Positions 54,284 through 61,216 of a stretch of DNA of 64,000 nucleotides are shown one piece after another. This stretch comes from Lacrimispora indolis DSM 755. GTDB lineage: Bacteria > Bacillota > Clostridia > Lachnospirales > Lachnospiraceae. A program made the translations under genes and the position numbers. The stretch spans positions 248,001 through 312,000 of the forward strand of contig NZ_AZUI01000001.1 of the NCBI RefSeq assembly GCF_000526995.1. The letters are read 5' to 3'. The notes beneath the pieces are model-generated. The model was given only the letters and a program-made list of their open reading frames with translations, was not told the origin of the DNA and did no database searches. Position 1 is the first letter of the stretch, and each line of letters begins with the position of its first letter.

Positions 54284-55237
54284 ATGAGTAATTGTAGAAA
54301 TAGGGACGATAATTATTACCAAGATGAACGCAATTGTTGTCCTGGACCACAAGGACCCAGAGGCTGCCAGGGACCTACCGGACCAACGGGACCAAGAGGC
54401 TGTCCAGGACCTACCGGGCCGACCGGACCAAGAGGCTGTCCAGGACCTACCGGGCCAACTGGGCCTCAGGGACCGCAGGGATTACAAGGACCTCAAGGGC
54501 CTCAGGGACCTCAAGGACCTCAAGGAATTCAAGGACCTACCGGGCCTCAGGGACCTCAGGGATTACAGGGACCTACCGGACCAACGGGTGCTACCGGCGC
54601 TACCGGTGCTACGGGTGCTCAGGGACCAGTTGGGCCTATCGGACCTCAAGGGCCTCAGGGATTACAGGGACCTACCGGGCCAACGGGCGCTACCGGTGCT
54701 ACGGGTGCTACGGGTGCTCAGGGGCCCATTGGACCTACCGGGCCTCAAGGACCTCAGGGTATACAGGGACCTACCGGACCAACGGGTCCACAAGGAGAAA
54801 CCACAATTGCATACGGGGGACTCTTTTCAATTGTACCCCAGTCATTTACCTTTACCGCCGCAGATCAGGTATCACAGGTTGCTCTGGCAACCCAGATGCC
54901 TTCTTCCAACGTCGTTCTTGGCAGTAATACGATTCAAGTTAGTCTCTCTGGTTTTTACGAGGTAAACTTCATGATTCGTTTCGCCCCAGCTGCAACGACT
55001 ACAACAATTAATGCCGGAGTGCGTTTTAACGGAGGAAGCACGTTCCTTACTTCTACTCTGCAATCCGTTCTTTTGTCTCTCACGGAAAATACCATCATCC
55101 AGGGGAGTGTCATTCTGGCGCTAGGTGCGGGCTCAGTCCTCGATTTGGCACTGCAGTCAACGGGACCTGTGACAGTCAGCCTGGCAGCCAATGCGAACGC
55201 ATCGCTTAGTGTCAAACTGCTTCAGCTTGCACCTTAG
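54284..55237 (+). CDS. collagen-like G-X-Y repeat protein, exosporium/BclA type
   Basis: ATG 54284 after CAGGAGGGAATTATA. The 317 residues start with a Cys/Asp/Asn-rich head ([20 protein letters not shown]). About 50 Gly-X-Y triplets follow (residues 21-168, mostly GPT, GPQ, GAT). The globular C-terminal domain is about 140 residues ([44 protein letters not shown]). This architecture matches the BclA/BclB spore-surface glycoproteins, whose Thr-rich collagen stalks are glycosylated and trimerise through the C-terminal jelly-roll. No signal peptide is present, as expected for a mother-cell-assembled spore protein. The DNA of the stalk is highly repetitive and prone to length change. Confidence 0.88.
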
Positions 55238-56861: not shown

Positions 56862-57464
56862 TCAACACTGGTTTACAATTACAATAACTGATTCAGCATC
56901 TTCTCAAGGAGTTCAAAAAGACAGCGAGCCAGGTAATGCGGAAGGAGCAGGCAATACCTGTGCTGTTGTCTCAGGCGCAATCCCACATTTCCGTTACTTC
57001 ATACCAAAACACCTCCCAATATTTTGCATATGAACATGCGTTTACCGATCCCCCCTTTATGCAGCGTAGATTACACCGATTGCAACGGCGTGCAGCTTTT
57101 TGAAAGTATAAATAAAGTTTCTCCGCCGACACGGCAGCTTACCAATCCGCTTTCGGCAATAATAAATCCCTCCACATCGCTCACGTCATCTGTCCTGATT
57201 TTACTCCATCTGTTTGGCTCCTGATTGGCCCGGATACATCTATTTACAGTACCATTACAATAGATTGTCCCTCGTTTTATACAACGGGTTTATGTGATAA
57301 AAATCCCCGGTATGTTATAAACTGGGGCAAATTGGGGACATGATTCTGGTAATTGGGAACAAATCATGTTTTAATTATGAGCCGGAAAGACTATACTCAG
57401 AAAGAACTAAAGATAATATTTATTGAAATCCAGCTTTTCAATACACAAAACAGAGGTGATCTAT
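56862..57464. other. decayed or regulatory stretch before the ibr-like operon
   Basis: No complete gene. A minus-strand open stretch (about 57067-57280) gives a plausible peptide (VEGFIIAESGLVSCRVGGET) without a start codon. A plus-strand 66-codon frame at 57024 lies antisense to it and has no ribosome binding site. The segment is probably scar tissue from earlier insertions. No promoter was found with confidence. Confidence 0.35.
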
Positions 57465-58778
57465 ATGCCCAAAATATATACCTCAGAAGATGTATTAACT
57501 GCAGCAATGAGGCGGATTAACATCGCGTTTTCAAATTTCTCCCACCTATACCTCTGCGTGTCCGGCGGCAAGGACTCGTCCGTCATGCTCCAGCTCTGTG
57601 CATACATAGCCCGGCTGAGGGGCAAAAAATTCAGCGTCCAGTATATTGATCTGGAAGCACAGTATCAGGCTACGATTCATCACATCGAAGAACTGCGCCG
57701 GATGACAGCGGATGTAGTGGACAGGTTTTACTGGTGCTGCCTGCCCCTGTCACTTCGCAACGCAGTATCCGTCATTCAGCCAAAATGGATCTGCTGGGAT
57801 CCAGATGAGCGGGAGAAGTGGGTGCGGGATATGCCGCAATACGCCTGTGTGATAAACGAAGATAACCTGCCAAAAGACTGGATATGGTTTTATCGGGGCA
57901 TGGAGTTTGAAGAATTTACATATCAGTTCAGCCAATGGTTCCAAAAAACCCACGGCAATACTATCGGGGTCGGCATTGCTATCCGGAGCAACGAAAGTCT
58001 TAACCGTCTCAATACCATTATAAGCAAAAGAAAAGAAAGGTATCAGGATTACGGATGGACAACAAAGCTGCGGGTCCCTGGGCCTGATTGCGAAATCTAT
58101 CATTTCTATCCGCTGTACGATTGGCGAACTGAAGATATCTGGGGCGCTGTGAGCCGTTTGGGACTTGCCTATAATGAGATTTATGAGCTGATGTACAAAA
58201 ACGGGGTGAGCATCCATTTGCAGCGGCTCTGCCAGCCATACGGGGATGACCAGCGCAACGGATTGGACCAGTTCCGTGCGCTGGAGTCTGAGACCTGGGA
58301 AAAGGTTGTAAACAGGGTGCATGGCGTGAATTTCGGAAATATCTATGCCAGATCATCACTGCTGGGAAACATGAAGTCTGAGAAGCCCGCAGGACTGACC
58401 TGGCAGCAATATACCGTATTACTGCTTGAAAGCCTCGGCCTTTATTCTCCTGAGCTGAGGGATCACTACCACCGCAAAATAAAGATTTATTTGAAATGGT
58501 GGTCTTCCCATGGATTCCAGCTGGATCACATACCAGACGAAGCCAACCGGGAGCTGGAGGCGAAGAAAAAGATACCATCCTGGAGGCGGATAGCCAGAGC
58601 TATTGAAAAAAATGATTTTTGGCTGCGCCGGCTCAGCTTTGCACCGTCAAAATCAGACGCAGAGCTATTGATTCAGCTTAAAAAGCAATACCAGAATCTT
58701 ATACATTTGGAGGACGCGCAGGACAAGAAGATGCGTGAGATAATCATGGAGGTGGATCATGGAAATACAATGTTTTGA
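57465..58778 (+). CDS. ibrA: IbrA-like PAPS-reductase-family protein (DUF3440)
   Basis: ATG 57465 (MPKIYTSEDVLTAAMRRINI) after CAGAGGTGATCTAT gives 437 residues. The N-type ATP-pyrophosphatase loop is at residues 34-39, in LYLCVSGGKDSSVMLQLCAY. The family block YWCCLPLSLRNAVSVIQPKW then CWDPDEREKWVRDMPQ follows, and YPLYDWRTEDIWGAV later. In E. coli, IbrA with IbrB raises expression of immunoglobulin-binding surface proteins; the chemistry is unproven. The fold adenylates a substrate, as in PAPS reductase, DndC or tRNA thiolases. It overlaps the next gene by 20 bases. An accessory, possibly transferred unit. Confidence 0.85.
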   Translation: MPKIYTSEDVLTAAMRRINIAFSNFSHLYLCVSGGKDSSVMLQLCAYIARLRGKKFSVQYIDLEAQYQATIHHIEELRRMTADVVDRFYWCCLPLSLRNAVSVIQPKWICWDPDEREKWVRDMPQYACVINEDNLPKDWIWFYRGMEFEEFTYQFSQWFQKTHGNTIGVGIAIRSNESLNRLNTIISKRKERYQDYGWTTKLRVPGPDCEIYHFYPLYDWRTEDIWGAVSRLGLAYNEIYELMYKNGVSIHLQRLCQPYGDDQRNGLDQFRALESETWEKVVNRVHGVNFGNIYARSSLLGNMKSEKPAGLTWQQYTVLLLESLGLYSPELRDHYHRKIKIYLKWWSSHGFQLDHIPDEANRELEAKKKIPSWRRIARAIEKNDFWLRRLSFAPSKSDAELLIQLKKQYQNLIHLEDAQDKKMREIIMEVDHGNTMF

Positions 58779-59223
58779 GGGAAAATACGATAAAGCGCTT
58801 TTCTATTCCAAGATGGGGCGCTTTTTCGCCGAGGAGAGATACATTCGGCAAATGCCTTACCTGCGCAACGAACCTGACCGGGTCTGGTTCCTGATCGAAA
58901 GAGAAGGACGGGTCGCCGCTTTTTCATCTCTGCTGATTAAGAGTGAATATATATTATTTTCCACGGAATATGTAGAGACAAAGTACCGAAGGCAAGGTTT
59001 GTTCAAAGCTTTAACAAAAGCCCGGTTCAAATATTGCTGCGAAATTAACATGCCCGTGCATACCTCTACCAACATTGAGTTTATTAAGGATTATTATGTG
59101 AAGCAGGGTTTTAACATATATCGAACCACCAAACACTACTGGTTTTTATGCAGAGAAGGTCAGGAGGACACTTATGAAATTCACAGAAAAGAAAACATCA
59201 GAAACCTGCAATACGGAGCTTGA
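58759..59223 (+). CDS. GNAT acetyltransferase in the ibr-like operon
   Basis: The 154 residues have the acetyl-CoA binding motif A (STEYVETKYRRQGLFKALTK) and the C-terminal beta strands (YYVKQGFNIYRTTKHYWFLC). The start at 58759 lies within the ibrA-like end, and its own last 50 bases overlap the ibrB-like start, so all three are translationally coupled. The acceptor is unknown: protein, nucleotide or small molecule. The invariant placement between the IbrA- and IbrB-like genes suggests a shared pathway rather than a passenger. Confidence 0.8.
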   Translation: MEIQCFEGKYDKALFYSKMGRFFAEERYIRQMPYLRNEPDRVWFLIEREGRVAAFSSLLIKSEYILFSTEYVETKYRRQGLFKALTKARFKYCCEINMPVHTSTNIEFIKDYYVKQGFNIYRTTKHYWFLCREGQEDTYEIHRKENIRNLQYGA

Positions 59224-59845
59224 AAACTGTATTGAAAACATCAGGAATCTTCTTTATCCAATGAAACTGCACGAAAAGATACAGGCTCTGAACAAGATCC
59301 GGCGGGCTTTAAATGAATGTTCCCCGTTTCATGATCCTGTGGATCTGGTGGAGTGGATCCCCGCCAAAAAAATACAGGCGAATGATTACAATCCCAACAA
59401 GGTCGCCCCGGATGAAATGGAGCTGCTTTATACGTCTATCCGCATGGACGATTTTACACAGCCAATCGTATCCTACCGTATCGACAACGATCACTACGAA
59501 ATTACAGACGGATTTCACCGCAACAAAATTGGCAGGTATCCCGACATCGCAAAAAGACGCCATGGTTACTTGCCATTAACCATTATTGACAAACCCCTGG
59601 ATGAACGCATTGGCTCAACGATCCGCCATAACCGGGCGAGAGGAACCCATCAAATCCGTTCTATGAGCGAGATTGTCGTTACGCTGTCAAAAATGGGCTG
59701 GTCCGAGGCCAGAATAGGAAAAAACCTGGGCATGGAGCCGGATGAAATTATCCGCTTAAAACAAATCAGCGGATTGAAGGAAGCGTTTCAAAATCACGAA
59801 TTTTCTAAGTCGTGGACCGAATTTGAGAATAAATATTACAAGTAA
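59174..59845 (+). CDS. ibrB: IbrB-like ParB/sulfiredoxin-domain protein
   Basis: The 223 residues have an N-terminal helical part (1-60). The ParB/Srx-like nucleotide domain covers 62-150: WIPAKKIQANDYNPNKVAPD, FTQPIVSYRIDNDHYEITDG, FHRNKIGRYPDI. A RHNRARGTHQIRSM segment follows, then a helix-turn-helix-like C-terminus (VVTLSKMGWSEARIGKNLGM). ParB/Srx domains bind NTPs and DNA or act as phosphotransferases. With the ATP-pyrophosphatase-like IbrA this suggests nucleic-acid or nucleotide modification, or regulated DNA binding. Convergent with the histidine kinase gene. Confidence 0.84.
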   Translation: MKFTEKKTSETCNTELENCIENIRNLLYPMKLHEKIQALNKIRRALNECSPFHDPVDLVEWIPAKKIQANDYNPNKVAPDEMELLYTSIRMDDFTQPIVSYRIDNDHYEITDGFHRNKIGRYPDIAKRRHGYLPLTIIDKPLDERIGSTIRHNRARGTHQIRSMSEIVVTLSKMGWSEARIGKNLGMEPDEIIRLKQISGLKEAFQNHEFSKSWTEFENKYYK

Positions 59846-59860
59846 AGAATCAGGCCGTCA

Positions 59861-61216
59861 TCAAATTGATGGGGACTTTTCTTTAAAATCCATAAGGTAT
59901 GGGGTCTGAGGCATACAGACCCTGATTTTGAACACTCTCTTTTCCTTATCCGGATCAATTACAACTAAACCTCCAAGGCTTTCAATCGTTTCCTTAATGA
60001 TTCGCAGCCCAAAGCCATGCAAATCCTTGTCCTCTTTCGTTGTCTCCGGTTCATCGCCTTCTATCAATAACTCACCGTTAAAAGAATTGGTTATCTCAAT
60101 GATGACCCAATTCTGATTTCCGTTGCTCTTTACCTCAATGAATCGTTCCTGACCGGACAACTTATTGCAGGCTTCTATTGCGTTGTTAATGATATTTGCA
60201 AAAACACGGACAATGTCCAATTCCGTCATTGGTACAGTTTCCGGAAGATATGCATGTGCGGAAAAATGGATGTTCTTTTCTTCACAAACATCGGCCGCAT
60301 CCTTTAATATGGCATCCAATATAATATTGTCAGAATAGCTTTTGTGAACAAGTACATTCCGCTGCATCGTATCATGGATGCCGTCTAACATTCGTATGGC
60401 TTTTTTATATTCCTGGCGGTTCAGCAAAGCTTTTAAAGAAGCCATCAAATTTTCATAATCGTGCCGAAATGCCCGATAGCTTTCCGTATATTTACGATAG
60501 GATTGATAATGACGCATTTGGCGGGAAAGCTGATCCTGTAATTGATAGGTATACAACTCGTACTCAAACAATTCGGATACCTGAGTCGTATGATGCAGGA
60601 CAAACAGCAACCATAATTTACTGATAATGCAGGCGCCCAGATAAAGTACAGTGAACCAAGCAGAGGATCTGATGTTGTCATAATAACGGCCATCATTAAT
60701 AAGTGTGAGAAACAGCAGTTGGAAAAAAAGGTAAATGACAACGAATTTCAGCTGCCTCCTGTTATGAAGCAAATGCCCGGCCTTTTTATGTGTAACAATC
60801 AACTTGCGGGAAAGTAAATCCCATGCGATTGAAAGCAGCACAACTAATGGAAGCATTACCTGATTCTGGATATCCCGCAAGAAAATGTCTTTGATGCTGG
60901 TATGAAAAATAATGGAATACAGCGAAAAGACTATGCCCATACTGCTGTATAAGGAAAACATGTAGATGCTGCCTACATAAAGAATCTGCATGTAGTTTAC
61001 ATAAAACAGCAAATGGTTGGCCAGCATTACAGAACCTATAATGAGATAAATGGCAAACCGGGGATCCAGCAGCAAATAGGCTGGCACGGCAACACCGATA
61101 TTGACGGCAAGCGCAGCTGCGCCATAAAGCCAATGGCTCCTTTTCGACGGAAACACCGCCTTGTAATCAAGATAGATAAAAACATCATAAATAATGAGTG
61201 AAATAAGCCCTGACAT
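59861..61216 (-). CDS. GHKL sensor histidine kinase, AgrC-like
   Basis: ATG 61216 (MSGLISLIIYDVFIYLDYKA) after GGAAAGGGAGAAAATC gives 451 residues. Six or seven membrane helices occupy 1-220. A coiled linker follows, then the phospho-acceptor His in SYRAFRHDYENLMASLKALL. The ATPase has the N box (ANIINNAIEACNKLSG) and the G box (DLHGFGLRIIKETIESLGGL). This is the HPK10/AgrC type that senses peptides or membrane signals and pairs with LytTR regulators. It overlaps the regulator gene by 32 bases. Confidence 0.9.
   Translation of the reverse strand: MSGLISLIIYDVFIYLDYKAVFPSKRSHWLYGAAALAVNIGVAVPAYLLLDPRFAIYLIIGSVMLANHLLFYVNYMQILYVGSIYMFSLYSSMGIVFSLYSIIFHTSIKDIFLRDIQNQVMLPLVVLLSIAWDLLSRKLIVTHKKAGHLLHNRRQLKFVVIYLFFQLLFLTLINDGRYYDNIRSSAWFTVLYLGACIISKLWLLFVLHHTTQVSELFEYELYTYQLQDQLSRQMRHYQSYRKYTESYRAFRHDYENLMASLKALLNRQEYKKAIRMLDGIHDTMQRNVLVHKSYSDNIILDAILKDAADVCEEKNIHFSAHAYLPETVPMTELDIVRVFANIINNAIEACNKLSGQERFIEVKSNGNQNWVIIEITNSFNGELLIEGDEPETTKEDKDLHGFGLRIIKETIESLGGLVVIDPDKEKRVFKIRVCMPQTPYLMDFKEKSPSI

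Follow-up and report, generated by a model that had tools for sequence, protein, structure and literature searches.

Lacrimispora indolis DSM 755 carries a three-gene operon in which a small protein with the GNAT acetyltransferase fold, here called family X, is encoded between the two partners of the IbrA/IbrB pair. The operon lies in a window of 64,000 nucleotides, bases 248001–312000 of the 6.38 Mb single-contig genome. The pair itself is known from viruses and plasmids. In relatives the middle protein is sometimes fused to its partners and has apparently lost its acetyl-CoA site more than once, features that suggest a machine for handling nucleic acids, so far undescribed, and not a simple acetylase. 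In the mainly open-access literature consulted, no paper was recognised that describes the triad, a GNAT-fold third subunit with fusions and a missing motif, or the links of these genes to a helicase and type IV-B CRISPR systems, which makes a weak case for their novelty. No biochemistry of the common IbrA relatives was met in the same literature.

The operon and its three proteins

The genes lie on the forward strand in the order IbrA-like ATPase, GNAT and IbrB-like ParB. The open reading frames (ORFs) and the sequence confirm the overlaps of 20 and 50 bases described in an earlier, sequence-only reading of the window. The first gene (57465–58778, from an ATG at 57465 to a stop at 58778) encodes an N-type PP-loop ATPase of 437 residues, in which the SGGKDS loop noted by that reading occupies residues 33–38 and is accompanied by PAPS-reductase-like and DUF3440 domains (E 1e-9 and 4e-28). 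This protein matches PHROG 2302 (E 3e-75) and the third matches PHROG 2159 (E 8e-69), which supports their proposed identity as IbrA and IbrB. When searched against the PDB, the IbrA profile matches CysD, PAPS reductase and FAD synthase. Among aligned relatives, SxGKDS, R174, E177, S178, R181 and Cys256 are kept at 0.99–1.0. Cys256 occurs in 154/154 rows, 147 of which are distinct, and Cys110 in 147/154, and the next cysteine column reaches 99/154. Since only these two are strongly kept, a three-cysteine Fe-S cluster is unlikely; a two-cysteine thiolation may be within reach of the protein.

The middle gene (58759–59223) encodes 154 residues that score under Pfam's own cut-off for GNAT. The structure model (pLDDT, a predicted local accuracy score, 87.9) identifies the protein as a GNAT by fold, and all 50 Foldseek matches listed are acetyltransferases (best E 5e-7). 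The motif A recognised by the earlier reading is present as RRQGLF; across 57 sequences, counting the window's, conservation of its R77 and G80 stands at 0.98. Diaminobutyrate acetyltransferase (EctA) was considered as an identity for X and rejected, as no NCBIfam match was obtained at E 0.01.

The third gene (59174–59845) encodes 223 residues of the predicted ParB-CTPase fold, with a kept C-terminal segment that looks like a helix-turn-helix by eye. ParB_N scores under Pfam's own cut-off, and the profile finds ParB and Noc structures in the PDB. The RHNRARG block singled out earlier spans residues 151–157. The DGxHR and RHNRARG columns are kept across 157 aligned IbrB proteins (R154 at 0.89) and, aligned by eye, they probably correspond to the nucleotide-contacting C and P motifs of the fold.

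Purifying selection acts on each of the three genes. The ratio of nonsynonymous to synonymous substitution rates between the window and four relatives is 0.05–0.09 for IbrA, 0.11–0.22 for the GNAT (up to 0.34 between relatives) and 0.07–0.08 for IbrB, with one pair saturated. Shine-Dalgarno-like stretches, read from the sequence, stand 5' of all three starts (AGAGGTGA, GGAGGTGG and AGGAGG), the one before IbrA at 57452–57460 on the forward strand. A possible terminator on the same strand (59855–59882), a pattern match only, separates the operon from a convergent AgrC-like gene; this pattern was found 5 times, against 3.4 expected in shuffles.

The genomic setting looks ordinary, judging from the neighbouring sequences. 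Upstream are epimerase genes and a gene for a protein that is collagen-like by sequence; downstream is the convergent AgrC/AgrA-like pair, of which the AgrC-like gene stands on the same side of the operon in three further genomes of the genus. The collagen-like protein (54284–55237) has 317 residues with GPQ/GPT repeats and is exosporium-type in look. No ParA-type domain was detected in five neighbours scanned with Pfam, so that the ParA-beside-ParB arrangement of ParABS systems is not seen there. The defence island that the earlier reading had suggested looking for was not found either; PADLOC matched one protein among ten neighbours, an ordinary ABC ATPase. Within the genus the operon is patchy, being present in 6/25 genomes, its own counted, and in one copy in its own genome. 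IbrA is 78–86% identical in the five others, and the nearest named loci are those of Lacrimispora celerecrescens (81%) and L. amygdalina (78%).

Occurrence of the third gene among relatives

The distribution of X was assessed in 160 loci, 80 from viruses and 80 from genomes, chosen as those closest to the window by IbrA and hence not a random sample. An IbrB match is present in 80/80 viral and 79/80 genome loci; the one miss (L087) falls where a contig ends, and two of the matches (L037, L118) are short. An iterated profile (threshold E 0.01) places X between, beside or fused to IbrA/IbrB in 70/160 loci. In L046 X lies upstream of IbrA, and in L070 the profile missed a GNAT; in total 72/160 loci have a GNAT and 88/160 do not. 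The expectation that the acetyltransferase would be a general third part of such loci is therefore not supported.

Where X is present, its association with the pair is close. In 65 cases a separate X ORF lies between IbrA and IbrB, and in 50/65 both junctions are 60 bases or shorter. X is fused to IbrA in four loci (L009, L010, L091, L096) and to IbrB in a fifth (L063). Window-type X (E 1e-6) was found in 7/116 genomes, the window's own counted, always adjoining or fused to IbrA. The recurrence of gene order and close spacing in other genomes, which the earlier reading had proposed to check, indicates that the operon is not a chance arrangement.

Occurrence also depends on relatedness. Restricting IbrA to 380–620 residues leaves 153 rows, and the seven loci dropped (L074, L132, L153, L155, L156, L157, L159) are absent from the tree and from the 153-row counts. 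Among these rows, X accompanies 6/6 IbrA proteins at 69% identity or more to the window, 25/39 at 55–69%, 22/27 at 47–55% and 12/81 below. Together, the slot ORFs, fusions, identity-dependent occurrence and genome survey show that the coupling claimed earlier is real but lineage-bound. In distant IbrA loci of the family and order (about 33–38% identity where given), X was found in 0/20 distinct loci; no IbrB was seen in three of these stretches, L181/L202 (one place) and L201. Eleven near-identical rows were thinned before one later analysis, and L006/L092, L002/L089 and L115/L116 are duplicates. In L153, L155, L156, L157 and L159 the IbrA frame is split into two ORFs, whether by a split gene, a frameshift or an assembly fault.

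X does not have a uniform active site. Motif A, called as [QRK]..G[ILVWMYF] within the aligned segment, is absent from 52/73 X relatives in the 160-locus set. Acylation, one of the two pathways envisaged by the sequence-only reading, thus cannot be the common chemistry of these systems. The fold is kept where motif A is absent, and we infer that the motif disappeared from these proteins and did not arise anew in the others.

IbrA relatives are common in phage and plasmid records. At E 1e-5, they occur in 215 phage records (38 covering at least 80% of the query) and 606 plasmid records (568 covering at least 80%). The plasmid records are mostly from Klebsiella and Escherichia, and 295 are predicted to be conjugative (e.g., NZ_CP057100.1). 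A phage-borne clade of the window type was rejected, as none of 50,697 phage records matches the window GNAT; a one-pattern scan of viral contigs for it returned 14 stretches, none of them a relative.

Helicases, CRISPR loci and other neighbours

A nucleic-acid context for the pair, suggested by the earlier reading, is borne out by the ParB fold and, in relatives, by SNF2-like helicases and type IV-B CRISPR loci. A helicase, mostly of 390–490 residues, is found directly upstream of IbrA in 46/153 loci (examples of this placement are L002:3367–4833, L090:5432–6844 and L341:2105–3517), when its end is allowed to lie up to 300 bases ahead of the IbrA start or up to 150 past it; a match occurs anywhere in the stretch in 52/160. 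By class, it accompanies 21/45 loci with X lacking motif A, 6/20 with motif A, 19/59 without X and 0/29 with a small protein, M, described below. The helicase adjoins the pair in Streptococcus and Lactobacillus phages, lies downstream in a Fusobacterium phage, and on a Paenibacillus larvae plasmid the order is helicase-IbrA-X-IbrB. PADLOC models for ZorD and DpdE match the helicase of L002.

Csf-like and cysH-like genes lie near the pair in 8/160 loci (seven elements), in varying order; PADLOC models confirm Csf3 for L006 (E 2e-50) and, for L022, Csf2 (E 7e-47). In L014 (4346–8986) and L101 (6420–10983), IbrA-GNAT-IbrB stands between csf3 and cysH; L006, L019, L022, L025, L097, L342 and L343 are further linked IbrA-IbrB loci, some with a GNAT. 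The hosts are viruses, prophages and two haloarchaeal plasmids, the latter carrying Csf2, Csf3, IbrA, IbrB and CysH-like genes together. The Halomontanus rarus plasmid has an extra GNAT there, without a match to the family X profile at E 0.1, and the Natrinema thermotolerans plasmid has no GNAT annotation at its Csf2/IbrA locus. Among 27 viral Csf2 loci, six contain IbrA and one of these six X; three of the six share 96% identity over 3.8 kb (L223 compared with L224 and L225), and three are contigs already in the set. A scan of 80 cysH-like loci gave Csf2 in 21 and an IbrA-profile match (1e-20) in 4/21 and 29/80, counts that are unused because the IbrA and CysH profiles weakly match each other's proteins. 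By eye, the csf3–cysH-like interval holds quite different genes in the other type IV-B loci L213, L217, L218, L219, L222 and L237, among them a DNA-methyltransferase-like gene in L218.

Other proteins can also join the pair. An ectoine-synthase-like (EctC-like) cupin is fused to ParB in Mycobacterium phage Gaia (L206:4302–5201) and lies between IbrA and ParB in Pseudoalteromonas phage XCL1123 (L210:4332–4724); this domain has no match in the 160 loci. The small unannotated protein M (SCEHNL...KAWIGHAA) occurs in 29/160 loci and is fused to IbrB in four (examples at L028:5231–5635, L048:2087–3205 and L210:5309–5659); the one copy tested has no Pfam match at E 0.1. Among 99 neighbours from 25 related loci, nine PADLOC models matched at E 1e-20, each a single neighbour; five of the nine are for methyltransferases and may reflect one and the same protein. 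The 99 are part of 128 listed, and those omitted include all five from the type IV-B locus L101, so that this sample understates defence-like neighbours. In a PHROG scan of the same 99, no phage family dominates (commonest 8/99).

Possible function and comparison with known systems

Gene structure, recurrence, fusions, a fold kept without motif A, and the neighbours are observed features of these loci. The reading that we favour, at a probability of roughly 0.45, is an ATP-dependent, DNA-directed complex of all three proteins with X as its acceptor-side subunit; complex formation, DNA as the substrate, and the chemistry are what we infer. IbrB would bind a nucleotide and load on DNA, as its fold and kept motifs suggest. 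IbrA, from its motifs an N-type ATP pyrophosphatase, would adenylate a target or a small carrier, with the invariant Cys256 as a possible nucleophile. X would hold the acceptor and, where motif A is present, as in the chromosomal, helicase-free form at the window, would also pass an acyl group from coenzyme A (CoA); without motif A it would stay as a recognition or assembly subunit. In many mobile relatives an SNF2-like translocase comes in addition. Overall, DNA or a protein bound to it would receive a chemical mark that changes its expression or the way the host handles it. From the first interpretation, the IbrA/IbrB identity, the GNAT coupling and the nucleic-acid context are supported; the GNAT as a general rule, acylation as common chemistry and, among the ten window neighbours, a defence island are not.

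Several observations weigh against such a complex. X has been gained or lost at least 18 times on the tree and is also missing from a close locus (L190); given its absence from 88/160 loci, the IbrA/IbrB core works without it. The window has no helicase, the best match in its own genome lying elsewhere at 28% identity, and none adjoins the pair in the 29 loci scored with protein M. IbrA gives weak scores with the DndC and BrxP models (E 3e-4 and 9e-4), and the PDB entry that the IbrB profile matches best, over a short stretch, is named CAP REPEAT and is not a ParB. Lastly, the Escherichia coli pair is described as an activator of prophage eib genes rather than a modifier (PMC6008420, citing Sandt 2002).

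This last record fits both a DNA-directed complex and a purely regulatory one. In the latter, the main rival though a rather unlikely one, IbrB would be a nucleotide-switched DNA-binding regulator and IbrA its ATP-driven partner, X would acetylate or bind IbrB or a host regulator, and nucleic acid would stay unmodified. Phage annotations likewise call the genes co-activators of prophage gene expression, and many solved GNAT kin (GCN5, RimI) act on proteins. The K-12 ybdNM operon is repressed by CitR, and in the deletion table of the same study ybdN, ybdM and cys genes appear with raised values, a correlation only (PMC9068703). Transcription control leaves unexplained the strictly conserved PP-loop site, the neighbouring helicase and the EctC-like cupin in the third slot. 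It is doubtful that the substrate is RNA or a signal nucleotide, with IbrA adenylating an RNA base or making an AMP-linked small molecule, X acylating, and IbrB binding RNA or a nucleoside triphosphate. N-type PP-loop enzymes often modify tRNA. IbrA-IbrB, in some cases with a GNAT, sits beside type IV-B Csf ribonucleoprotein genes and a cysH-like gene. AMPylation of bound nucleic acid has been proposed for CasCysH (PMC8175902). Double-stranded DNA is the more likely substrate, however, in view of the ParB fold and the SNF2-like helicase, and IbrA is found in only 6/27 viral Csf2 loci. The GNAT could also be an unrelated acetyltransferase that is co-transcribed by chance, a passenger. Its absence from 88/160 loci would accord with this, but the reading is very improbable given the fusions to both partners, the same slot across distant hosts, and the finding that in 116 genomes every window-type copy (E 1e-6) stands with IbrA.

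A bolder extension of the DNA-directed complex, which we consider unlikely, is that different enzymes (acetyltransferase or EctC-like cupin) can occupy the third slot to complete the modification, that in many lineages the acetyltransferase is now a CoA-free subunit, and that the pair supplies the missing chemistry of the type IV-B loci that hold it. The third subunit connects IbrA/IbrB to SNF2-like helicases and type IV-B CRISPR loci. Fused and overlapping, it is also a handle, as it indicates partners expected to co-purify, and the natural series of motif A present, motif A absent and no subunit could separate acyl transfer from recognition.

Among known systems, Mu Mom and other Mom-like modifiers have a GNAT-type fold that acts on DNA, and in the fold they resemble X. 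Mom is very divergent; no PHROG, Mom-like ones included, matches the window GNAT at E 0.01. DndB/DndC phosphorothioation resembles the pair in joining a PAPS-reductase-like ATPase to a ParB-superfamily protein (PMC10853773, PMC8175902), but IbrA scores weakly against DndC (E 3e-4, not a family-level match) and the ten window neighbours contain no Dnd match, DndD and DndE included. Type IV-B CRISPR loci, the role of which is called unknown in the review PMC8175902, encode CasCysH, which like IbrA belongs to the N-type PP-loop ATPases found in mobile loci. The IbrA proteins are longer and form a family of their own, and csf1, csf2 and csf3, present at some related loci, are absent from the ten window neighbours. 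For Dpd 7-deazaguanine modification the likeness lies in the ParB-like DpdB (PMC12839542) and the helicase of L002, and the ten neighbours have no Dpd match, including the DpdA transglycosylase. Kaljevic et al. (2025; PMC12704722), who surveyed the ParB-CTPase fold, report one ParB-acetyltransferase fusion, which bound GTP only and, like the triad, joins the ParB fold to an acetyltransferase; the words IbrB, PAPS and phosphosulfate are absent from the main text of that paper. The closest comparison is with the E. coli and phage IbrA/IbrB pairs (PHROG 2302 and 2159; ybdN-ybdM in K-12), which share both families and their order, with genes adjacent or overlapping. None of eight named phage records has family X; six have nothing between the genes, one has the EctC-like cupin there and one the cupin-ParB fusion, whereas at the window the GNAT overlaps both partners.
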